Source of the DNA: Rubidibacter lacunae KORDI 51-2
GTDB taxonomy: Bacteria; Cyanobacteriota; Cyanobacteriia; Cyanobacteriales; Rubidibacteraceae
NCBI RefSeq assembly: GCF_000473895.1
Contig: NZ_ASSJ01000070.1
Span: forward strand, 62,001 to 126,000
Length of the DNA: 64,000 nucleotides
Reading direction: 5' to 3'
Below the pieces are notes generated by a model. The model made no database searches and had not been told where the DNA came from. It worked only from the letters and a program-made list of their open reading frames with translations. The position numbers were made by a program, and so were the translations under genes. The number at the start of each line of letters is the position of its first letter. The stretch's first letter is position 1. Of this stretch, positions 20,369 through 53,396 are shown piece after piece.

Positions 20369-21589
20369 CTACCCGATGGCATCAAAGACCTTGAACATCG
20401 GCATGTACATCGAGACCAAGATGACACCAACCAGGCATGCTACAACCACAATCATGACGGGTTCCAGAATGCTGGTCAGCGCTTTAACGGCCTGCTCGAC
20501 TTCTTGCTCGTAGAATTCCGCCACCTTCATTAGCATGGCGTCCACTTCACCCGTTTCCTCGCCAATGCTGATCATGGCAGTGGCGAGGGGTGGGAAAACG
20601 CGCTCGCGGATCAGCGCCGTACTGATCATGCCGCCTTTCTCGACTTCTCTCGATGTTGCCTCGATTGAGTTGGCAACCACTTGGTTGCCTGAGGTATCTT
20701 TAACAATCTCCAAACTCGTCAGGATCGGTACGCCCGATCGCGTTAGAGTTCCGAAGACGCGGCAGAAACGGGCCACAGCAGACTTCTGATTGAGATCGCC
20801 CAAAACCGGAATCTTAAGGAGCAGCATGTCGATCTGCAGGCGGCCGGCCGGCGTCTTGTAATACTGCCGGATCAAAAGCACGATCGCGATTGCTACACCC
20901 ACTACCAATGCAGCTCTCCAACTGCGCAAGACATCGCTAACTTGCAGCATCAGGCGAGTGATGAGCGGTAGCTCTACGCCGAGGTCTTCGAAGATCTCTC
21001 CGAAAATCGGAATCAAAAAGATTGCCATCCCAAAGAACACTGCTACCGCGAAGAGCATGACCGCCACTGGGTAAGCCATCGCAGCTTTGATTTGCCCTTG
21101 TAGGCGAGCCAAATCTTCCAGCAACTTGGCTAAGCGATCGAGCACTTCGTCGAGCACGCCACCCGTTTCACCAGCTTCGATCATGCTGACATAGAGGCGA
21201 TCGAAACACTGCGGCTGTTTCCCCATCGCTTCGGAAAGATTGATCCCTTGCTGCACGTCTCGATCGATCGCCGCAATGGACTTGCGCAATTTCGGATTGC
21301 GCGTCTGTTCGCCCAACACCGCCAAACCCCGCGTAATGCCAACTCCAGCATCAACGAGCGCCGAGAACTGACGCGAGAATATTGCTTTATCCTTAACACC
21401 AACCCCAGACAGGCGCTCTTCAATGGCGGACAGGTCCAGGTTCATGTTGATACTCGCTCGCTTCGCCTGTCCGACGCGCGCGTACTTGCTCAGCAGCATG
21501 CGCTGCGCTTGAGCGGGAGAAGGAGCCACAACTTTCTCTTTCAGCCGCTTCCCGGATGCATCTAGAACGTCGACAACAAACGTCGGCAT
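20369..21589 (-). CDS. pilC: Type IV pilus inner-membrane platform protein PilC
   Basis: The 406-residue protein is a GspF/PilC-type platform. It has two GspF domains, with FSRQFSALVDAGVGITRGLAVL and FCRVFGTLTRSGVPILTSLEIV as the matching repeats. Membrane helices occur near residues 170-205, 220-245 and at the C-terminus (VMIVVVACLVGVILVSMYMPMF). PilC couples the PilB and PilT ATPases to pilin assembly and retraction. It is the last gene of the leftward pilB-pilT-pilC run, 92 bases after pilT. Confidence 0.95.
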   Translation of the reverse strand: MPTFVVDVLDASGKRLKEKVVAPSPAQAQRMLLSKYARVGQAKRASINMNLDLSAIEERLSGVGVKDKAIFSRQFSALVDAGVGITRGLAVLGEQTRNPKLRKSIAAIDRDVQQGINLSEAMGKQPQCFDRLYVSMIEAGETGGVLDEVLDRLAKLLEDLARLQGQIKAAMAYPVAVMLFAVAVFFGMAIFLIPIFGEIFEDLGVELPLITRLMLQVSDVLRSWRAALVVGVAIAIVLLIRQYYKTPAGRLQIDMLLLKIPVLGDLNQKSAVARFCRVFGTLTRSGVPILTSLEIVKDTSGNQVVANSIEATSREVEKGGMISTALIRERVFPPLATAMISIGEETGEVDAMLMKVAEFYEQEVEQAVKALTSILEPVMIVVVACLVGVILVSMYMPMFKVFDAIG

Positions 21590-21681
21590 GATTCACCTCG
21601 CTTTACCTGCTGGGTTGAAGAACGGACGGTACGCAGCTTACTGCAGGGCTGGTTCGAACCGCTCGTAGTCGAAATCTAAAA

Positions 21682-22791
21682 TTAACGTCTGGCCGCAACG
21701 CGCTTGCCCGTGGTTGCGCCAGCAGAAACCAAGCGCTGCAACTCGTCCGGTCGCGAGCTCTTGGACACTGCCTCCTCAAACGAGATTGTATTGCTATTGA
21801 CCAAGTTTGAGAGCGCTTGCTCCATCGTTTGCATGCCTAAACGCATTCCGGTCTGAATCGCCGAGTAAATCTGCGGGGTCTTTCCTTCGCGGACGAGGTT
21901 GGCAATTGCGGGCGTGACGATCATGAGCTCTTGTGCCAGCGCGCGTCCGAACTCACTGGGCTTCGGATCGGCCTTTTTAGCCAACGTTTGGCAGAAAACA
22001 GCGATCAACGAGTTGGAGAGCTGCGCGCGAATCTGTGCCTGCTGCCCAGCCGGAAACACGTCCACCATGCGGTCCACGGTACTAGCCGCCGAACTGGTGT
22101 GCAAAGTTCCAAGTACGAGGTGACCGGTTTCTGCTGCCGAAACTGCCAATGCGATGGTCTCGAGGTCGCGTAGCTCGCCCACGAGGATGATGTCAGGATC
22201 TTCACGCAATGCTGCCCTCAAGGCATCGGCAAAGGACTTTGTATCTTCACCTTTTTGACGCTGGTGGAAGAGACTCTTTTGATTCTCGAAGACATACTCG
22301 ATTGGGTCTTCAACCGTGAGGATGTGCTCCGACCGAGTGCGGTTGATCGAGTCAAGAATAGCTGCCAGTGTCGTCGTCTTACCGGAACCGGTCGGTCCGG
22401 TAACCAAAATCAACCCACGCGGTCGCGACGCCATGTCTCGAATGACATTCGGCAGGCCGAGTTTCTCAAATGTAGGAATTTTCGAAGTCAGCGCGCGCAG
22501 ACAAGCTGCATACGCACCGCGTTCCTTATAAACGTTGACGCGGAAGCGTGCCAATCCCTTTACCCCGTAGGAACAATCGAGCTCCCAATGCTGCTCGAGG
22601 TGCTTGCGCTGGGTGTTGTTGAGCATGCTAAAGATCAACCGCTGCGTCTCTTGAGGCGAAAGCTCGCGTTCGTCGATCGGTCCGAGCTTGCCACTGACGC
22701 GGAAGTAAATTGGTGCATCCGCCTGGATGTGCATGTCCGAGCCACCGAGCTCGACAAGTTTCTCCATCAGGTCTTCGATCATCAACTCCAT
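21682..22791 (-). CDS. pilT: Twitching motility retraction ATPase PilT
   Basis: The 369-residue AAA-like ATPase has Walker A GPTGSGKTTTLAAI, an Asp box around ILTVEDPIEYVF, Walker B DIILVGELRDLETI and the His box ETGHLVLGTLHT. It also has the PilT marker sequence ending AIRAQLSNSL or a close form (IRAQLSNSLIAV). Length is normal for PilT. The enzyme powers pilus retraction, needed for twitching and often for DNA uptake. The N-terminus MELMIEDLMEKLVELGGSDMH is family-typical. Spacing to pilB is 102 bases. Confidence 0.96.
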   Translation of the reverse strand: MELMIEDLMEKLVELGGSDMHIQADAPIYFRVSGKLGPIDERELSPQETQRLIFSMLNNTQRKHLEQHWELDCSYGVKGLARFRVNVYKERGAYAACLRALTSKIPTFEKLGLPNVIRDMASRPRGLILVTGPTGSGKTTTLAAILDSINRTRSEHILTVEDPIEYVFENQKSLFHQRQKGEDTKSFADALRAALREDPDIILVGELRDLETIALAVSAAETGHLVLGTLHTSSAASTVDRMVDVFPAGQQAQIRAQLSNSLIAVFCQTLAKKADPKPSEFGRALAQELMIVTPAIANLVREGKTPQIYSAIQTGMRLGMQTMEQALSNLVNSNTISFEEAVSKSSRPDELQRLVSAGATTGKRVAARR

Positions 22792-22893
22792 GGGGATGTC
22801 CTCCGTGCGGGCGATCGCATTGGGTTACTGTTGGCTGCGAAGTCGTCATACAGAAGTATTCGGGCTCAAGTATTCGGGCTCAGGCTGAACGCA

Positions 22894-25017
22894 TTAATCT
22901 TGGAAGCGCGGTGTCAGGCAGTAAGGACAATCAAGCCAATCCGGCTGCAGTTCTGCTTTGCAGGTTTTGCATGTTAACGAACTCTTGCGCTTGGCTTTGA
23001 GTTCCGCTTCCAGTCCCGAGTCGGTAAATGTTACGCGCTCGACTTCTTCGAACGTAGTGTACCCGTCCCGCACGAGATTGAGACTATATGCCAGCAGCGT
23101 GTTCATCCCTTCCTCGACCGCCGCTTCCTTAATACGTTCGGTGGGCGCGCCCTCTGTGATGAGTGCCTGCAAGCGCTCGGTATTCCGCATGACTTCGTAG
23201 ACACCAACGCGACCCTTGTACCCCGAACCGTTGCATTTCTCGCAGAGTATGCCGCTTTTACGTGCTTCTTCAGCATCGTCTGCAGTCAATTTGTTGGCTC
23301 GGTAGAAGGTAATATCCCCCTCGTTAGCTGCTGACAGACCGAAACGCGCCAGCTCTGACTTGTCTGGGTGGTAAGGTATGCGGCATTCCGAGCAAACGCG
23401 ACGCATCAAGCGCTGTGCGAGGATACCGATGAGCGAACCCGAGATCATGAAGGGTTCTACGCCCATTTCATCCAAGCGAGCGATCGCGCCAGCCGCGTCG
23501 TTCGTGTGCAACGTCGTCAAAACCAAGTGACCTGTCAGCGCAGCTTCAATAGCAGTCTGCGCCGTCTCTCGGTCGCGAGTCTCACCCACTAAGATGATGT
23601 CCGGATCCTGCCGCAAGAAAGAGCGCAAGATCGAGGCGAAATCCATTCCTTTTTGCCGGAGTACCTGCACCTGCGTGATGCCCGGTAGCGAGTATTCAAT
23701 TGGGTCTTCTGCCGTATTAATATTAATTCCCGGATCGTTCCGTTCGGCCAAAATCGAATACAGCGTCGTAGATTTACCCGAACCCGTGGGTCCCGTCACG
23801 AGAATCAGTCCGAACGGCCGCCGTGCCATCTCGCGCACGAGCTCGAGCGAGTCATCATCGGTAATGAGTTTGTCCAAACCGAGCTGCGTGGCACTATTGT
23901 CCAGAATCCGCAGAACGATTTTCTCGCCGAAGCGCGACGGAATTGTGCTGACGCGAAAGTCGACGTTGCGGCGCTTGAATTTGCGGCGAATTCGTCCGTC
24001 TTGGGGCACCCGTCGTTCGGCGATGTCCAGGTCGGCCATAATCTTAAATCGCGCCGCCACAGCAGGAGCAATCTTCGGCGGCAGGGGATCGAAAGATTGC
24101 TGCAACACCCCATCTTTGCGGAAGCGGATGCGCAAGTATTTCTCTTGCGGTTCGATATGGATGTCCGACGAACCTTCCTGGATTGCCTTGATCAAAATCA
24201 TGTTCACGAGGTTGATGACCGGTGCGCCTTTTGCCTCGGTAAGGGCAGAAGTTAGGTCGTCATCCAACTCATCTCCAGCTTCTTCAGGGCCGAGGTCGAA
24301 GTCGCCCAGTCCGGAGAGATCGACGAAGTCCACTTCGACGTCGTCTTGGTCGCCCTCGTCGTCGTCACGTTGGATCTGCTGGTTTTGCAACTCCTGAACG
24401 AGGCGAGCAAGCGGATCGTCCTGCAGGTCGTGCTTTAGTTTCTGCTGCTGCTTTTGCTGCTTTTGCTTCTTTTGCTGCGCGTCGAGATAGGGCTGAATAT
24501 TGTATTGGAAGTCTTCTAAAGCCATCACCAAGCGCTGCATCTTGATGCCCTTAGGACGCAACATCAGGTTGAGATCGTCTTGAGCTGCCAAGTTGTCAGG
24601 CTCAACCATGGCGACGACCAGCGTTGGGGGGTCTTCGTATCGAGCTAAGGGCAACACCTTGTGACGACGACAGATATCGATCGGAACGAGATCGTTGACC
24701 AGTGCACCGACCTTGTCGTGATCGACTTGGTCGATCTCGGGGTCGAGGGACTCGACGCCGAAAAGAATCTTCAGTTCGAAGAGATGGTGGCGTTTGTATT
24801 GCCGCAGCAGCTCGGGCGGCAATTCGCGACCCATCATCTCTGCTAACACCTGCGTCAGCGGCTCGCCAGTCTCCTGAACCCTCGTTCGGGCTTCTTGAAG
24901 CTGCCGAACATCGTTGACGAATTCAGCCTGAATTAACTTATTCTCAAATGGGGAGTAGTCTTTCCTTGACGCGACCAGCGCGCGCGACCGCTTCTTTGCG
25001 GAAAATGAGCTATTCAT
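22894..25017 (-). CDS. pilB: Type IV pilus assembly ATPase PilB (GspE family) with C-terminal Cys motif
   Basis: The 707-residue extension ATPase contains an N-terminal MshEN-like region, a Gln/Lys-rich stretch near residues 180-200 and an acidic stretch near 220-260. The ATPase core follows, with Walker A GPTGSGKSTTLYS, DPDIILVGETRDRET and LTTLHTNDA. The zinc tetracysteine module is split as CSEC and CEKC. Beyond the usual end there is a short tail with two more Cys pairs, CKTC and CPYC, which look like a zinc ribbon. The gene leads the pilB-pilT-pilC run and is divergent from grpE. Confidence 0.95.
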   Translation of the reverse strand: MNSSFSAKKRSRALVASRKDYSPFENKLIQAEFVNDVRQLQEARTRVQETGEPLTQVLAEMMGRELPPELLRQYKRHHLFELKILFGVESLDPEIDQVDHDKVGALVNDLVPIDICRRHKVLPLARYEDPPTLVVAMVEPDNLAAQDDLNLMLRPKGIKMQRLVMALEDFQYNIQPYLDAQQKKQKQQKQQQKLKHDLQDDPLARLVQELQNQQIQRDDDEGDQDDVEVDFVDLSGLGDFDLGPEEAGDELDDDLTSALTEAKGAPVINLVNMILIKAIQEGSSDIHIEPQEKYLRIRFRKDGVLQQSFDPLPPKIAPAVAARFKIMADLDIAERRVPQDGRIRRKFKRRNVDFRVSTIPSRFGEKIVLRILDNSATQLGLDKLITDDDSLELVREMARRPFGLILVTGPTGSGKSTTLYSILAERNDPGININTAEDPIEYSLPGITQVQVLRQKGMDFASILRSFLRQDPDIILVGETRDRETAQTAIEAALTGHLVLTTLHTNDAAGAIARLDEMGVEPFMISGSLIGILAQRLMRRVCSECRIPYHPDKSELARFGLSAANEGDITFYRANKLTADDAEEARKSGILCEKCNGSGYKGRVGVYEVMRNTERLQALITEGAPTERIKEAAVEEGMNTLLAYSLNLVRDGYTTFEEVERVTFTDSGLEAELKAKRKSSLTCKTCKAELQPDWLDCPYCLTPRFQD

Positions 25018-32851: not shown

Positions 32852-34378
32852 TCAGGCTCGTTTGCTGTCCCTAGGTGCCGGCGATGCTCCCAAGCCGCAA
32901 GCATCGAGGCGACGAAATAGTCGACGTAAGCCCCATACAGCCGAGCCGTACCACCAGCGAATGGCTGGCAAATGACCGAGCGGCGCGCCTGCATCGTAAG
33001 TTAAGTGCTGGTGGGGGAGCCACGCGCCAGACCGGAACCACCCCAATCGATCGCCGAATTTGTAGTACGTCGGCTCGTACAAGTCCTGCCAAATCCGCAG
33101 CTGTACGCTGAAGCCAAAGCGATCGCCGGAATGCTCCGCCCACAGCTCGTCGATCGCGCGCAGTTCCACACAGGGGAAGAGGTCGATCTCTTCCCCTTCT
33201 AGCCAAGTTCGCCGCACGGCTTTCCCCGCCTCTAACAGCAGTCGGTGCGTTTCCTCGTTAGCCCGATGCCAGTTGCCAGCCTCCAGGGCCGCGCTCAACG
33301 GCGTGCAATCGATGGCCAGCAATGCCGGCTCGGATTCGATCGCGTCGAAGCGTAAGTCAAAGCCTAAAGCATCCACGGTATCGAAGACAAACGTCGAATC
33401 TGACGACTCGACCGGTTCCTCAGGCACGGCATTGGGGGCGGCTGGCTGGGCCGCTGGAGCAACGGTCGCGGGCTCCGGTGTCGGTTCCGGTTGCGCGAAC
33501 TGCGGGGCATAGGGATAGAGCTGCCGCAAGTCATCGAGCACGGCACGTGCGTTGGGATAGCGCTTGCTAATCGCTTCTGCCAGCATCCTGTTGAGGACGA
33601 ACTCCAGCTGTCGCGAGATCGGACGATTTAGATAGCCTTGCCAAACCCAAGTAGCAGCATCGTGACTGTAAAGGTCGAAGGGCGGCACACCCGTTAGCAG
33701 ATAAATGCAGGTAACGCCAAGACCGTAGACGTCGCTAGCCAAGGTGGCCCGACCGCGCATCTGTTCCGGCGCGACATACTCTGCCGATCCGATGGACGTG
33801 CCTGCTTGCATCAAGGACCCTTCAGTCAAGATTTTTGCCGCTCCGAAATCAACGAGGGCAATCCGCCCGTCCCGATCGCGGATCAAGTTTTCGGGTTTGA
33901 TATCGCGGTGAATGACTTGCCGGTCGTGGATGTAACTCAAGACCGGCAACACCTGACCGAGCAAGTCAAGTAAATCTGACTCACGCGCGCGCACGATGCG
34001 GACGAGCCAGTTTGCTAAATTCTCGCCCTCGACCCAAGCCTGCACCAAGTATTGATACTCACCTTCGGCAAATGTATCGTAAAGTTCGGGGATTTGAGGG
34101 TGAGCGCCCAAGCCTGCCAAAAACCGAATCTCTTTAGCAAAAAGTGCCGTTGCTAACTCCCGCCGTTCTCCCAATAGCGATTGCGGAAAACACTGTTTGA
34201 CGACGCAAGCCCGTTCTGGTTTGACGCCAATATCGACCGCCAAAAACGTCCGCCCGAATCCACCTTCGCCCAACACCCGAACAATGCGATAGCGTCCGGC
34301 AAGCAGCCGCTCGAGGAAATCCGCCGCGCGAACGTGTCGTGAATCAAATAAGGGTTTTAGCCCCTCGGCATCGGTCAT
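32852..34378 (-). CDS. Serine/threonine protein kinase with C-terminal GUN4 domain
   Basis: The 508-residue protein is a fusion. Residues 29-290 form a Hanks-type kinase with the Gly loop LGEGGFGRTF (36-45), Lys61, the catalytic HRDIKPEN (HRD 157-159), DFG (177-179) and a C-lobe SAEYVAPEQM, so it should be active. A Pro/Ala-rich linker (about 300-335) leads to a GUN4 domain at about 355-495, marked by LRAIDELWAEHSGDRFGFSVQ and KFGDRLGW. GUN4 domains bind protoporphyrin IX and Mg-protoporphyrin and activate Mg-chelatase. Kinase-GUN4 fusions are known in cyanobacteria, but their signals are unclear. chlH lies 4.5 kb downstream on the other strand. Confidence 0.93.
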   Translation of the reverse strand: MTDAEGLKPLFDSRHVRAADFLERLLAGRYRIVRVLGEGGFGRTFLAVDIGVKPERACVVKQCFPQSLLGERRELATALFAKEIRFLAGLGAHPQIPELYDTFAEGEYQYLVQAWVEGENLANWLVRIVRARESDLLDLLGQVLPVLSYIHDRQVIHRDIKPENLIRDRDGRIALVDFGAAKILTEGSLMQAGTSIGSAEYVAPEQMRGRATLASDVYGLGVTCIYLLTGVPPFDLYSHDAATWVWQGYLNRPISRQLEFVLNRMLAEAISKRYPNARAVLDDLRQLYPYAPQFAQPEPTPEPATVAPAAQPAAPNAVPEEPVESSDSTFVFDTVDALGFDLRFDAIESEPALLAIDCTPLSAALEAGNWHRANEETHRLLLEAGKAVRRTWLEGEEIDLFPCVELRAIDELWAEHSGDRFGFSVQLRIWQDLYEPTYYKFGDRLGWFRSGAWLPHQHLTYDAGAPLGHLPAIRWWYGSAVWGLRRLFRRLDACGLGASPAPRDSKRA

Positions 34379-35618: not shown

Positions 35619-38393
35619 TCAGAAGCGGAATGGAATGGTCAGACCGACCCCGACGGCCAGGTCCTTATCACGCACGCGTAGGTTGTGAAAAGTGGAGCCG
35701 CCGACGCGGTTGGTGAGATAAAACTCCAGCAGCCATGGTGCAGTGGCATCGGCTGGCGAGTTGCCGAAGAAGGTGGAAATATCCCAACGCAGGCCCAACG
35801 AGTATGGAACTTGGTTGCCGAGCCGATTGCCATCAAACCCGTTGCCCAGATCGGTAAAGTTTGCTCCCACTTCAGCGATCAAGTCGAGATTGCGCGCAAC
35901 TGGGTAGGAGCCGCCTAAGTTGAAACCGGCAATATCCGCCCCACCCTGCTGCACGAAAGCAACAATGGGCGTGAACCAGACTGCAGCGTCGTTGGCAAAC
36001 TGATAGTGCAGCGGCAGCGAAAGTGTCGCGATGTATAGCTGCCCTTCATCGAAATCGTCTTGATTGATGAGGAACCCTGGAATGCTTTTGCTGAGTCCGC
36101 GGTCGTCAAATTCGTCGCGGTTGTTGTTGAAGAAGTTGACGAACGGCTCGTTGGTAATACCGAGGGTCAGCGCGAGGCTAGCAGTGAGTGGGTCGCCAGC
36201 CTGTTGGTCGAGAACGCGCAATTTGCCGCTGATGCCTTGTTCGGATTCGTCAACCTCCCCGGAAATAAGGTCGAGATAAATCCCGACTTCGAGGTCGCGA
36301 ACGGGTGTGTAGCGCAGTGCTGTCAGGAAGCCTTGACTGCCGCCTCCCAAATTAATTGCAAACTGACCGCTCGGCAAGACGCTGCCGTCGAAGAAGGCAA
36401 AACCGCCATTGCGTGGATCCGTGGGATCTTCAGGAGTGCTATCGAAACTATCGGAGTAACGTCGATTTCCAGCGAAGAAGCTGGGCAGAAAGGTTAGGTT
36501 CGCCCCAACCGCAGCATATTCTTTATCTGCTGTTAGCGATAGCGGGCCGGTTGTGCCGAGGGTATTGGTTGCATATAGGTCGAGTGCAACGTTCGGATTA
36601 ACCAAATAGCGCAATCCAGCATTAAAAGCAATTGTCTTTGAGGGGTCGCCCGAATCGCGATCGATCGCGTTATTGCCGGTTACCGGCACGAATGCATCGG
36701 CAAACAACAGAATACTGCGATTGACGCGGAACGACGTGGCACCAACAACACCGAAAGTGGTTCCGAACTCTTCATCCGAATCCGGTGGTTGGTGCAGGTG
36801 CATGGCATTTTCGCTCGGGAAAAACGCCACCGTCGGCGAGACGGTCAGCCGCCAACGATCGCGATCTCCCAGGCGTGCTGTTAGAGGAAACTGCAGCGAT
36901 GGCACGACCGACTCGTCCGTGCGCTCCTCAACCGTGAAGCCGCGACTATTGGTGAATCGGATGGGGCGACTGCCAAAGGACACGGCTAGCACGCCACCGA
37001 GCGCGAGCGACTCATCGCTGTTATCCCAAATCCGGTACTGTGTTTCGACAGTAAGTTCCTGGAATTCCGAAAAGAAAAAGTTGCTTTCGTCGGGATCGCG
37101 GATCGCGCGAAACTCGCCCTGATCGCCGGGAGATGCGGTATCGAGTCGCTGAAACTCCAGATTGAGCTCGAAATCATCGATGACGCCCCAGGTGAAGCCA
37201 AAGTTGGGATAGGCTGGCGTTCCGCTAACGACATCGTCAGGTATGACAAAGAGGCGGTTGCGAACGTTGAAGGAGAAGTCGCCGCGAGCGTACTGCTCGG
37301 CAGTTGGCTGACCGGGAGCTTGATAGAGCGGGCTAGCTGCCGCGGGATCGACTCCCTCGCGGGACTCGGCCGCGAGGGAGTCGATCGCTGCTGCTTCTGC
37401 AGCCGCTGCTTCAGCCGCGCTCTCGCGTTCGGCGGCCTCCGCTTCTTGCCGCGCCGCCGGAGTCAGGGCAATGGGCTCGCGGACGCGATCGGCACGGACG
37501 AGGCCGATCGCGGAGTTACGCATCACCACATCCCAATCGGGCGAATCGGGCGCGACGCTGAGGTCGAACTGAACGGCGCTTCCCCCGGCGGCTGTCGCAG
37601 TTAACGTTCGATAGGAAACGCGTCCGACGCCGAGAGCGGTGAGGTCGATCGACTCAGCCGGTGGGAACCCGGGTGCCAGCTTTACCCCGCGTAATTCCAA
37701 GCGCACGCGGGTGCGGTCGGGCGATCGCCACGCGCGTGCTTCCGCCACTTCCCCCTCGACGACGAGCGTCATGCCGTTCTCTTCCACGCGCCAATCACGC
37801 AAGAGTGCTGATTGCAACGCTGTTGGGGGAGGGACGAAGGGAACCTGCCCGGTTTCTTCGGCGGCGATCGCCTCGCGGATCGGTTCGGTTGCCGGTTGAG
37901 ACTGCTGTTGACGAGGGATGGATCCGCGCCTGCCATCTTTGCGGATGAGTGCGATCCCGCGCTCGGTTGTTATTACGTTCCAATCGGGCGAATCGGGCGC
38001 GACGCCGAAGTCGATCTGTACGGCACTGCCAGCAACAACCAGGGTTCGGTAGGAAACGCGGCTGACGCCGAGAGCTCTCAAGTCGATCCTCTCGGCAGGG
38101 GTGAAACCCGCAGCTAATTCCGTACCGCGAAGCTCTAGTCGCATGCGGGTGCGGTCGGGCGATCGCCACGAACGCGCTTCCATCACCTGGCCATCAACGA
38201 CAAAAAAAACGCCGTCTTCATCGACCTGCATGGCACGCAAAACGGCTAGCTGGGTTGCGACCTCAGCAGTAACGGGGCCTTCGCTTTCATTAGCCCGAGC
38301 AAGTTCTGGTGCACTCGCTAGTGGTAGCCCGGCTGCCAGCACTAGCAAAATTGCTCGCGCCATCGACATTCCGTCCATTGCTATCTCGCTCAC
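35619..38393 (-). CDS. Outer-membrane beta-barrel protein with two N-terminal AMIN domains
   Basis: The 924-residue protein has a signal peptide (RAILLVLAAGLPLASA). Two homologous AMIN-like domains follow, at about residues 45-155 and 195-300; each contains WRSPDRTRxRLELRG and ALGVxRVSYRTL followed by VAPDSPDW. An Ala/Glu-rich helical linker (310-350) leads to roughly 550 residues of alternating strands ending in GLTIPFRF, with the terminal Phe typical of outer-membrane barrels. AMIN domains bind peptidoglycan, so the protein may link the wall to the outer membrane. The barrel's transport role, if any, is unknown. It is transcribed leftward, divergent from chlH. Confidence 0.85.
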   Translation of the reverse strand: MSEIAMDGMSMARAILLVLAAGLPLASAPELARANESEGPVTAEVATQLAVLRAMQVDEDGVFFVVDGQVMEARSWRSPDRTRMRLELRGTELAAGFTPAERIDLRALGVSRVSYRTLVVAGSAVQIDFGVAPDSPDWNVITTERGIALIRKDGRRGSIPRQQQSQPATEPIREAIAAEETGQVPFVPPPTALQSALLRDWRVEENGMTLVVEGEVAEARAWRSPDRTRVRLELRGVKLAPGFPPAESIDLTALGVGRVSYRTLTATAAGGSAVQFDLSVAPDSPDWDVVMRNSAIGLVRADRVREPIALTPAARQEAEAAERESAAEAAAAEAAAIDSLAAESREGVDPAAASPLYQAPGQPTAEQYARGDFSFNVRNRLFVIPDDVVSGTPAYPNFGFTWGVIDDFELNLEFQRLDTASPGDQGEFRAIRDPDESNFFFSEFQELTVETQYRIWDNSDESLALGGVLAVSFGSRPIRFTNSRGFTVEERTDESVVPSLQFPLTARLGDRDRWRLTVSPTVAFFPSENAMHLHQPPDSDEEFGTTFGVVGATSFRVNRSILLFADAFVPVTGNNAIDRDSGDPSKTIAFNAGLRYLVNPNVALDLYATNTLGTTGPLSLTADKEYAAVGANLTFLPSFFAGNRRYSDSFDSTPEDPTDPRNGGFAFFDGSVLPSGQFAINLGGGSQGFLTALRYTPVRDLEVGIYLDLISGEVDESEQGISGKLRVLDQQAGDPLTASLALTLGITNEPFVNFFNNNRDEFDDRGLSKSIPGFLINQDDFDEGQLYIATLSLPLHYQFANDAAVWFTPIVAFVQQGGADIAGFNLGGSYPVARNLDLIAEVGANFTDLGNGFDGNRLGNQVPYSLGLRWDISTFFGNSPADATAPWLLEFYLTNRVGGSTFHNLRVRDKDLAVGVGLTIPFRF

Positions 38394-47225: not shown

Positions 47226-47477
47226 CGATCCACTAAAAGTTCACCGCACTCGGGTTACCATCCGGAGTGTCCCCGACCCGAACGACGGCTCGGCAGAGGG
47301 CGTCAGTTCGCTTCCAGTATGCGGCGATCGCACCGGGAAGATCTCTACACCCCATCCGGAAACCAAAATCTCCCTTAAGCTTCTCTGCGCGAGGCGTTGG
47401 CTCGCCTATGCTCCACGCAGGTGGCTGCGGGCAGATGGACTGTAAACCGATATCGATCCGGCAAGGAAGGTAGCGTG

Positions 47478-48908
47478 ATGCGATCGGCTAGGCAACAGGG
47501 TATACGCACGCGCATTCCCCCGTGGAGCAAGCGCATCCTCGCGCTTGGAGCTGTCTGCATAGCGATCGTCGCAATCCTAGTAACTCAACCGCACTGGGCG
47601 GTGCGCCCGCTCGCTCCGTTCATTTGCCCGAGCGCGATCTACGCCTTCGAGACCGATACCCCCGCGATCGCCCTGACCATTGACGACACGCCTAACGCCG
47701 ATCCAGCAATCACTACAGCGATTTTGGACTTGCTCGCTGCCGAGCACGTCCGCGCGACGTTTTTCGTAATTGCCGATAACATCACCCCTGCCAACCGCCC
47801 GCTCCTCAAGCGCATGGCGACCGAGCATGAGATCGGCAACCACCTTGCTACCGACAACCGCAGCATCGCCCTTGGATCGGCGGCATTTGCTGCCGAAGTC
47901 GAACGGTTCGAAGTTGGTCTAGCCAATTTAAGCCACCCTCGCTGGCTGCGCCCGGGCGGCGGCTTCTGCGATCGGGTCATGGCTGAAATTGCCCGCGATC
48001 GCGGCTACGAGCTCGCCCTTGCCTCCGTTTGGCCTTACGACACCTTCGGTTTACTGTCCCAACGCCGCTGGTTTCCGGCGTTCGCAACCTGGCAACTGGG
48101 GTGGGGCGATCGCTCGGGCGCGATTCTCGTCCTTCATGACGGAGGCAAGCGCGGCGCTCAAACGCTAGCAGTGCTGAAGCAGGTACTCGCACAATTTGAG
48201 GATAATTACCGCTTCGTCACGCTTTCCGACCTCGCTGCGGCAAGTAACAGCAAGGTTGAAGTCGCCACCGAACCCCTTCCCAACTGGTTGGAATTTTACT
48301 ACCGCCGTCTTCTACTAGGGGTCATTACCCCTCCACCGAGCTCGGCGTGGCGCGGGCTGGTCCTTTTCGTTTGGTTGCCCGCCGCGGGCGTCTGGCTGTG
48401 GCTCGGGTTTCGCTCGGGATGGCTGACTGTCGAACTTGCCATTCCTAGAGGCCGCGGGCTTTCCAGCATTGGGTTTTTTCTCTGGACGCCGATCCGCGTT
48501 TTCTTCGTACCGTCCTTTGCTGAGGAATGCCTGATGCGCGGGCTGTTGCTTCCCAGTGCTGCCGAACTCGCTAACGGCGCGATCGCCGCACCGACTGCCG
48601 CGCAACTGTTCGCCCAATGCCTTGGCAGCCTGGCAATTTATGTCTTTTCCCATCCGCTAGTTGGAGCTCTCATCGATCGATTGAGTCGCAACCCGGATTC
48701 AAATTACGGCGCGACGTTCCGGCAGCCCGTCTTCCTCGTATCCGTGGCGGTGCTCGGGAGCGCAAGCACGGTTACTTTTCTCGAAACCCATTCGCTCTGG
48801 CCGCCAGTGCTGATTCACGCACTCGTCGTTTCTATCTGGCTGCTTTTTCTCGGCGGCGATCGACAACTTAATGGCAAGCCTCGGTTCAAGCAAGTGCGAT
48901 CGATTTAG
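47478..48908 (+). CDS. NodB-type polysaccharide deacetylase fused to a CPBP-like membrane protease domain
   Basis: From ATG 47478 (AAGGAAGG seven bases upstream) the protein has 476 residues; the frame is open to 47397. After an N-terminal membrane helix (about 19-36) comes a NodB domain with TIDDTPN (67-73), HEIGNHLATD (117-126), RPGGG and LVLHDGG. The usual third metal ligand, the second His of NHxxxH, is Asp126 here. After about residue 290 come several membrane helices with EECLMR (349-354), matching the EExxxR motif of CPBP/Abi proteases, then VFSHPL and a late LIHALVV. The fusion suggests a cell-wall enzyme tied to intramembrane processing; that is inference. Confidence 0.82.
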   Translation: MRSARQQGIRTRIPPWSKRILALGAVCIAIVAILVTQPHWAVRPLAPFICPSAIYAFETDTPAIALTIDDTPNADPAITTAILDLLAAEHVRATFFVIADNITPANRPLLKRMATEHEIGNHLATDNRSIALGSAAFAAEVERFEVGLANLSHPRWLRPGGGFCDRVMAEIARDRGYELALASVWPYDTFGLLSQRRWFPAFATWQLGWGDRSGAILVLHDGGKRGAQTLAVLKQVLAQFEDNYRFVTLSDLAAASNSKVEVATEPLPNWLEFYYRRLLLGVITPPPSSAWRGLVLFVWLPAAGVWLWLGFRSGWLTVELAIPRGRGLSSIGFFLWTPIRVFFVPSFAEECLMRGLLLPSAAELANGAIAAPTAAQLFAQCLGSLAIYVFSHPLVGALIDRLSRNPDSNYGATFRQPVFLVSVAVLGSASTVTFLETHSLWPPVLIHALVVSIWLLFLGGDRQLNGKPRFKQVRSI

Positions 48909-52115: not shown

Positions 52116-53009
52116 TCACCCCCCATCGCTTGTAACTGCGGTCGGTGTGTCGTAATAGAGCGTAGTACTGGAATCATGCAGCGCTGACTGGGTGCGGCAG
52201 CCGGCAACACCATCGGCAACCAAGCCGCGGTCGCTTTGAAACGCCTCGACTGCCTCCTGTGTCCCCAAACCGTAGATACCGTCGGGTCGATCTTTGAGGT
52301 AACCCAAGGTTTGCAGTCGGTTTTGCAAGGTTGCTACAGACTCCCCACGACTGCCGCGTCGGAGCAACTTGTTGCAAATAAAGCGCGCGGTTTCGGCGCG
52401 ATCGCCTTCGTCGAGTACTACTACTGCCGGAGTTTCTGGAACGTCTGCTATGGAAGGCAAGGTTTGCTTTATGCGCTTGACACCCAAGAAACCAGCAGAA
52501 AAACACGCAATGGCAACCCCGACGTAGCCCAGACTCCAAGGCCAAGTTCTTTCAGTTGCGGGAGCGCTCATGCCAGCTCCACGCTTGGAGACGCGCTTCG
52601 ATTCGTTACGCGGGTAATACTGACCGCTCGGCGTACGCCCCAAGGTTTTGGGATCGTTCACCAAGATATGCCCCCTCTGTCGGAAACGCTCAAACCAATA
52701 CCACTCGCGCAGAGCCAGTTGGCGATCGCTAGATTTGGGTAGCAACTCCAGCACGGAAACCTTGGCGCGACCGATGTCGATAATGATGCTCGATCGGCAC
52801 GCGGAGTTGTTGAGATGTTGGCGAAGGCGCTGGCGGATATTATCGCTCAACCCGATATAGCTCACCCGCCCGCGATAAATCCGGTAAATGCCACGTGCGG
52901 CGGGAAGCGCTTCAAGATCGATCGCCATGGGTGTTTGAGAAGGTGCTGTGACTTCAAGGACTCCAACTGCATGTTGCCGGATAGAGCCCGAGCTGGGTTC
53001 AGCTGACAT
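52116..53009 (-). CDS. GIY-YIG nuclease domain fused through a membrane segment to a peptidoglycan-binding domain
   Basis: The frame encodes 297 residues from ATG 53009 (a TTG at 53018 adds three; ATG 52928 is also possible). Numbering from 53018, the N-terminal domain has GIY at 43-45, YIG at 54-56, Arg residues at 62-66, Glu at 105 and 110, and Asn121, which matches the full set of GIY-YIG catalytic positions. One hydrophobic helix spans about 159-180. Residues 218-280 form a PG_binding_1 domain (LLRRGSRGESVATLQNRLQTLGYL, then FQSDRGLVADGVAG). The predicted topology puts the nuclease inside and the wall-binding domain outside. I know of no described system with this design. Confidence 0.85.
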   Translation of the reverse strand: MSAEPSSGSIRQHAVGVLEVTAPSQTPMAIDLEALPAARGIYRIYRGRVSYIGLSDNIRQRLRQHLNNSACRSSIIIDIGRAKVSVLELLPKSSDRQLALREWYWFERFRQRGHILVNDPKTLGRTPSGQYYPRNESKRVSKRGAGMSAPATERTWPWSLGYVGVAIACFSAGFLGVKRIKQTLPSIADVPETPAVVVLDEGDRAETARFICNKLLRRGSRGESVATLQNRLQTLGYLKDRPDGIYGLGTQEAVEAFQSDRGLVADGVAGCRTQSALHDSSTTLYYDTPTAVTSDGG

Positions 53010-53396
53010 TAACGACAATTCAGTACCGGCACGAGGGCCCTGCCTGCAAAACTCGTCTACCGAAGCGGACGCTTCACTCAGATCGAGATCGAGAAACGCC
53101 AGCGGAGTCTTGTTTCCAGATTACGTCAAACCCGTCTTTACACACCAAATCTAGAGCGGGACTCATCCAGCGCCAGCCTCGAGACCGATCGGTGCAGGTT
53201 TATTGTGGGGACGGCACAAGCGAGCTCCCCCCGATAGAAAATGGGTCGCTTCAGATTGGGTCGGGGGGAAGACCATGCAGTTAGCAACACAAGGCGATTG
53301 ACAACATAAGTTCCGCCGGTCCGATCCACAACAGTGAGGGTTTCAAAGCAAAACACCCCCTCATCAACTGTTTTCCCACTTTGTGCCCCTTGTCAG
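53010..53396. other. Intergenic region upstream of the GIY-YIG gene
   Basis: The region holds a 72-codon leftward frame (53138-53356, GTG start, beginning FCFETLTVVDRTGGTYVV) that could be a small gene but has no recognised motif or clear ribosome binding site. Nothing else was found. Confidence 0.3.

Follow-up and report, generated by a model that had tools for sequence, protein, structure and literature searches.

In the window, by which we mean the whole stretch of 64,000 nucleotides analysed here, a minus-strand open reading frame at 52116-53018 extends for 300 amino acids from a TTG at 53018, and three codons inside it lies an ATG at 53009, which a sequence-only reading of this DNA had taken as the start. 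However, six homologues begin with MINWK, and their methionine aligns with a further ATG of the window frame at position 52928. Since the homologues start at the equivalent methionine, the likely product is a protein of 270 amino acids, and the residues of the fusion protein are numbered here from the methionine at 52928. By eye, no clear ribosome-binding site was seen upstream of TTG 53018, ATG 53009 or ATG 52928. The gene and its parts are as follows.

52116-52928, minus strand: gene for the GIY-YIG / membrane helix / PG-binding protein, 270 amino acids, with the most likely start as given by the homologues
52611-52928, minus strand: GIY-YIG nuclease domain, residues 1-106 (Pfam match 13-84), from Pfam and alignment
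52479-52535, minus strand: single predicted membrane helix, residues 132-150, from Kyte-Doolittle hydropathy with a 19-residue window
52377-52478, minus strand: variable linker from the helix to Cys185, residues 151-184, from alignment
52374-52376, minus strand: Cys185, first of the pair flanking the wall-binding domain, a cysteine in 7 of 7 fusion proteins
52179-52349, minus strand: PG_binding_1 domain, residues 194-250, from Pfam
52197-52199, minus strand: Cys244, second of the pair and putative disulfide partner of Cys185, a cysteine in 7 of 7 fusion proteins

That one protein combines a GIY-YIG domain, a single membrane helix and a PG_binding_1 domain, as the sequence-only reading had proposed, was confirmed by Pfam and hydropathy analysis. 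The window protein matched the GIY-YIG family PF01541 with an E-value of 1e-6 (29.4 bits against a cut-off of 22.6) and the PG_binding_1 family PF01471 with an E-value of 4.6e-17 (62.4 bits against a cut-off of 23), and both families exceeded these cut-offs in all seven proteins carrying the fusion, at 26.6-29.4 and 62.4-71.8 bits, respectively. In the window's own genome the fusion's domain was the only PF01471 match reported at E<=0.001, and its closest relatives by sequence in the PDB were an ErfK/YbiS protein (4lpq) and a spore cortex-lytic enzyme (6tci). Alignment of the seven fusion proteins revealed that Y15, Y24, R34, E75 and N91 are invariant, matching the list of tyrosine, tyrosine, arginine, glutamate and asparagine that we take to be the catalytic residues of GIY-YIG nucleases, so the claim that all expected catalytic positions are present (GIY, YIG, Arg, Glu, Asn) held throughout. 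Equally invariant were C44-R45-S46 and the run V90-N91-D92-P93-K94-T95-L96-G97, and the Pfam GIY-YIG match stops short of N91. Two observations had been named beforehand as speaking against the reading, namely homologues lacking the fused PG-binding domain and a catalytic arginine or glutamate that is not conserved; in all seven proteins the domain was above its cut-off and both residues were invariant.

AlphaFold models of the fusion, built from 3 sequences, reached a mean pLDDT of only 34 and 40 and were too poor for a fold search. When a profile of the nuclease half was compared with the PDB, three matches were returned, of which the sole GIY-YIG structure was chloroplast GRXS16 (2lwf) with a non-significant E-value of 0.15, and a Pfam search of the seven members matched no DNA-binding family or DNA-recognition domain. 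Among 27 GIY-YIG sequences aligned with hhalign, the nearest were four cyanobacterial proteins (L099, L102, L105 and L106) and the UvrC N-domain, with probabilities of 71-91% over 38-68 residues of the domain only; these share a related nuclease domain with the fusion, but no PG-binding domain was detected in the L099, L102, L105 and L106 loci. Together with L103 and L104 they are cyanobacterial GIY-YIG proteins of about 180-290 amino acids, and L106 presumably resembles the N-domain of plant GRXS16. Hydropathy analysis of 30 GIY-YIG loci found two segments above a KD of 2 (L037 and L063), a weak result as frames were picked by overlap alone, and one of these segments lies in a frame that is possibly not GIY-YIG while the other is upstream of the likely start.

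To our knowledge, the plastid proteins GRXS16, NFU1 and GRX6 have no membrane helix or wall domain. Like the fusion, chloroplast GRXS16 and algal NFU1 and GRX6 join a small GIY-YIG domain to another domain, but in the plastid proteins the partners are redox or iron-sulfur domains, and on algal NFU1 and GRX6 the GIY-YIG domain has no known function according to the part of PMC8003979 available. Such domains, as well as the identity of the sole GIY-YIG match in the PDB, raised the possibility that the GIY-YIG half of the fusion acts as a DNA- or protein-binding tether to the wall and not as a nuclease, comparable to the plastid GIY-YIG domains that have no known function. We regard this as improbable, since the five catalytic positions invariant in all seven proteins would be unneeded for binding only.

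The sequence-only reading had also placed a single helix in the membrane, and hydropathy bore this out, as the window protein contains one hydrophobic segment at residues 132-150 with a mean KD of 1.77 (1.04 for the next best window) and each of the other fusion proteins likewise has one hydrophobic helix. A signal sequence is absent from the N-terminus, where the six homologues open with the nuclease domain and have their GIY motif at residues 12-14. Net positive charge is greater before the helix than after it in five of the seven proteins, equal in L003 and reversed in L006, a distribution that is consistent with a predicted N-inside topology. Cys185 and Cys244 flank the wall domain in all seven carriers. 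We compared them with 35 other distinct PG-binding domains from the fetched loci, of which 27 align at the Cys244 position and 8 do not, and none of the 27 has a cysteine there; the Cys185 position is aligned in none of the 35. Since the pair is kept in every carrier and the second cysteine is absent from all 27 others, this suggests that the wall domain resides in an oxidising compartment, and the simplest reading would be a disulfide between Cys185 and Cys244 outside the cytoplasm, in the periplasm, with the nuclease on the cytoplasmic side.

The sequence-only reading had proposed a search for this architecture across the cyanobacteria. Within the family of the window organism, the whole fusion is present in 7 of 9 genomes, namely the window genome and all six genomes of one other genus, with one fusion per carrier; the carrier organisms are, we presume, salt-tolerant. 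In the remaining two family genomes (G001 and G003) the best matches are PG-binding proteins without GIY-YIG, and no fusion remnant was found, the G003 match ending near a contig edge. In a phylum-wide draw, 10 of 386 genomes matched the nuclease-half profile at E<=0.001; five are carriers and the other five matches lie in open frames of 558-631 amino acids, the size of UvrC. In an order-wide draw, 179 of 388 genomes matched at E<=1, of which seven are the carriers and the next best has an E-value of 5.4e-4, and among eight of the weaker matches that were translated there were one UvrC and six other GIY-YIG proteins, the eighth (L096) having been read in a wrong frame. No further fusion was seen among these 386 and 388 genomes, nor was a PG-binding domain detected in the GIY-YIG loci fetched outside the carriers. 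Because the two draws overlap, the first pass scored the best 12 or fewer candidates per genome, and a sample of the weak matches was examined, a very diverged fusion could escape these searches. A scan of an 84,980-species collection with two short peptide patterns returned two loci, both already known carriers, and is not exhaustive, as it recovered only two of the seven. Thus, in the searches made, the fusion is seen in one family only.

We also considered whether the gene could be a mobile element or a homing endonuclease. In viral contigs, 59 pattern stretches yielded no confirmed relative, and at 80% coverage of the whole protein none of 90 plasmid records and none of 561 phage records matched; among the plasmid and phage matches listed (20 and 5, respectively), all align to the PG-binding end. 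With the nuclease domain alone and an E-value limit of 10, nine phage records (best E 0.3) and six plasmid records (E 7 or worse) were returned. As no viral relative was confirmed and no phage or plasmid record covers 80% of the protein, this origin was rejected.

In the 15 pairs formed by the six carriers other than the window, the nuclease half has a mean identity of 88%, against 85% for phytoene synthase (PSY), 89% for phytoene desaturase (PDS) and 65% for the PG-binding half. In comparisons with the window, the mean for the nuclease half falls to 61%, lower than the 71% of the synthase and the 78% of the desaturase, and the helix and linker region at residues 107-184 is only 14-26% identical between the homologues and the window protein. 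In the same 15 pairs, dN of the nuclease half is 0.04-0.13 and dS is 0.8-2.8 in 13 pairs and saturated in two, while in all six comparisons with the window protein dS is saturated for both domains. In every pair with a computable dS, dN stays under dS for each of the two domains, and by this measure both domains are under constraint. With both domains above their cut-offs in all seven carriers and dN below dS wherever it could be computed, the fusion is more than a chance event. The wall half and the linker diverge faster than the nuclease half, and this, together with the restriction to one family in the searches made, would fit a fusion particular to this lineage, the wall domain doing no more than placing an ordinary nuclease, for example one of general DNA repair or turnover, with no special role in entry or division. 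Against this explanation, which we find rather unlikely, stand the retention of the wall domain and of both flanking cysteines in all seven carriers and a wall-domain dN below dS wherever dS is defined.

Distances between the fusion proteins track those of PDS and PSY with r=0.97 over 21 pairs and r=0.82 over the 15 pairs without the window. The tree of the fusion gene is poorly resolved (support 24-90), and in an unrooted tree of PDS and PSY the window genome groups, with a support of 100, with the non-carriers G001 and G003 and not with the other six carriers. Since these trees allow both loss and transfer, either the gene was present in the ancestor and lost from G001 and G003, or it was acquired by transfer.

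Among the seven carriers the fusion gene occupies three different neighbourhoods. In five of them a phytoene desaturase-synthase pair on the same strand precedes it by 34-168 bases. Its neighbours in G008 are trkH/trkA-like and phzF-like genes, whereas in the window a DUF218 gene stands on one side and a Rieske oxygenase gene on the other. The desaturase-synthase pair is present in all nine family genomes, so its company looks positional; in G008 and in the window genome the pair is elsewhere, and we therefore rejected a functional operon with the two enzymes and treated the proximity as one of position and not of function. Near the fusion in G004, a mechanosensitive channel gene is broken into two open reading frames (L029:10858-12448), while in G005, G006 and G007 it forms a single one. 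A Pfam scan of 18 neighbouring open reading frames recognised no defence, competence or division genes, and there is no partner gene that accompanies the fusion in every carrier. When two fusion proteins and three neighbours were submitted to PADLOC, the matches were weak and partial only, the best being UzuA with an E-value of 0.0071 in the G002 protein and 0.012 in that of the window. In polymorphic toxins an N-terminal export domain precedes a C-terminal nuclease toxin and an immunity gene follows downstream; here the nuclease sits at the N-terminus with no signal before it, and a downstream immunity-like gene is not common to all carriers, hence we rejected this class. The pilB-, pilT- and pilC-like genes, which the earlier reading had noted in the window without a direct link to the fusion, stand in a row at 20369-25017 on the minus strand (two T2SSE and one T2SSF) about 27 kb away, and we likewise saw no link.

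The presence of one fusion in each of seven of the nine family genomes, with conservation similar to that of PDS and PSY and distances that track both, raised the possibility of a core housekeeping nuclease of the envelope, which would resolve or trim chromosomal DNA at the membrane or septum, or process transformation DNA. For the last of these roles a ComEC-type Competence domain is at hand in all nine genomes. However, because it is also found in both genomes without the fusion, competence fails to explain the presence of the fusion, and the domain, which counts neither for nor against a competence role, was set aside as uninformative. Furthermore, the absence of the fusion from G001 and G003 indicates that some family members manage without it, and the 18 neighbouring open reading frames scanned contain no division or competence gene. 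We consider a housekeeping role possible, though not probable. It fits the single-copy, tightly conserved pattern nearly as well as does a role in cutting entering DNA.

The closest precedent that we found is SNIPE (Saxton et al. 2026, PMC13190303), an inner-membrane GIY-YIG nuclease with a cytoplasmic nuclease domain that, in the part of the report available, cuts phage DNA during injection, is toxic when it lacks its membrane helix, and requires its predicted catalytic glutamate for defence. Its DUF4041 domain promotes DNA binding and binds the phage tape-measure protein, and one or two helices are predicted in 66% of 474 SNIPE homologues, whose named N-terminal regions include FtsB, PilO, PspB, P22 tail needle, DivIVA, a secretion ATPase and PH; no peptidoglycan-binding domain is among them in the main-text section (PMC13190303). 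The fusion shares with SNIPE the GIY-YIG domain, a single membrane helix (by hydropathy in the fusion) and a cytoplasmic nuclease (predicted for the fusion). However, SNIPE has its helix near the N-terminus, DUF4041 in the middle and the nuclease near the C-terminus, whereas in the fusion the order is reversed and the anchor, C-terminal to the nuclease, ends in a peptidoglycan-binding domain. DUF4041 gave no match in the seven fusion members at E<=10, nor in the six homologues at E<=1; a search of the genomes for it found 0 of 9 in the family and likewise 0 of 14 in the control, and was thus uninformative. Since the fusion proteins lack DUF4041, we rejected membership in SNIPE.

Peptidoglycan contact has been described as part of the proposed injection sensing by Zorya, as far as the consulted part of a review goes (PMC12904381). 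Like the proposed fusion protein, ZorAB extends across the envelope, touches peptidoglycan and directs nuclease activity to where DNA is injected, but it is a multi-protein assembly that has a rotary motor and whose effectors are separate (PMC12904381). The fusion is one protein with no motor. In the accessible main text of PMC3482391, peptidoglycan-binding domains are mentioned and GIY-YIG is not, and in the parts of the open-licence literature covered by our search no published description of a GIY-YIG / peptidoglycan-binding fusion was found. The proposal of an undescribed system is partly supported; 'system' is too strong a word for a single gene without a partner conserved in all carriers, and SNIPE provides a precedent for a membrane-bound GIY-YIG nuclease (PMC13190303). 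We regard the fusion as a membrane-anchored GIY-YIG nuclease in which the type of anchor is new and the order of the domains is reversed.

Because the fusion is genuine and conserved, has its full catalytic set by sequence and is predicted to cross the membrane, it is best read as a nuclease placed at the envelope, in line with the sequence-only reading. We tentatively favour a single-pass, envelope-held nuclease that cuts DNA at the interface of membrane and wall, most likely DNA entering the cell. In this mechanism the N-terminal GIY-YIG endonuclease of a single-pass inner-membrane protein would lie on the cytoplasmic face, and the C-terminal, disulfide-stabilised PG_binding_1 domain would reach through a flexible linker into the periplasm and hold on to the wall. 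A minimal nuclease anchored both at the inner membrane face and at the wall would be kept off the nucleoid and the chromosome, and it would cut DNA appearing at the interface, for instance phage DNA during injection or DNA arriving by another route, in the manner of SNIPE, whose anchor differs. Because no DNA-recognition domain was found, its specificity would probably come from place. What the sequences show directly is the fusion with its conservation, its complete set of catalytic residues and the constraint on both domains; topology, disulfide, wall binding and nuclease activity are what we infer, and the substrate, entering DNA rather than the chromosome, is the least certain part. A more specific version, in which the PG-binding domain would sense or mark membrane-wall contact at phage injection or DNA uptake and the nuclease would cut the crossing DNA, giving single-gene, core-genome immunity at the entry site, appears doubtful to us.

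Several observations count against the entering-DNA reading. With PDS- and PSY-like conservation, tracking distances, one copy per carrier genome and no defence-like gene among the 18 neighbouring frames scanned, the gene looks more like a core gene than one in an arms race. Further points against the reading are the weak PADLOC matches, the failure of the charge rule in two of the seven proteins, the lack of a match to DUF4041 or another DNA-binding family, the poor AlphaFold models and the end of the Pfam GIY-YIG match before N91. If cutting of entering DNA is the true role, the fusion would represent a nuclease made both safe and specific by a wall tether, in one gene and without a recognised DNA- or phage-recognition domain, and the recently reported entry-site nucleases SNIPE and Zorya would be joined by one that is anchored in the wall and inherited vertically instead of being mobile. 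If the role is chromosomal instead, the fusion would be a new physical link between the wall and DNA.

Elsewhere in the window, we noted a 924-amino-acid open reading frame at 35619-38393 (minus strand) with no Pfam match at E<=0.001, a fusion of a protein kinase domain with a GUN4 domain at 32852-34378 (minus strand), and a single open reading frame at 47397-48908 (plus strand) that combines a polysaccharide deacetylase domain with an Rce1-like CAAX membrane protease domain.
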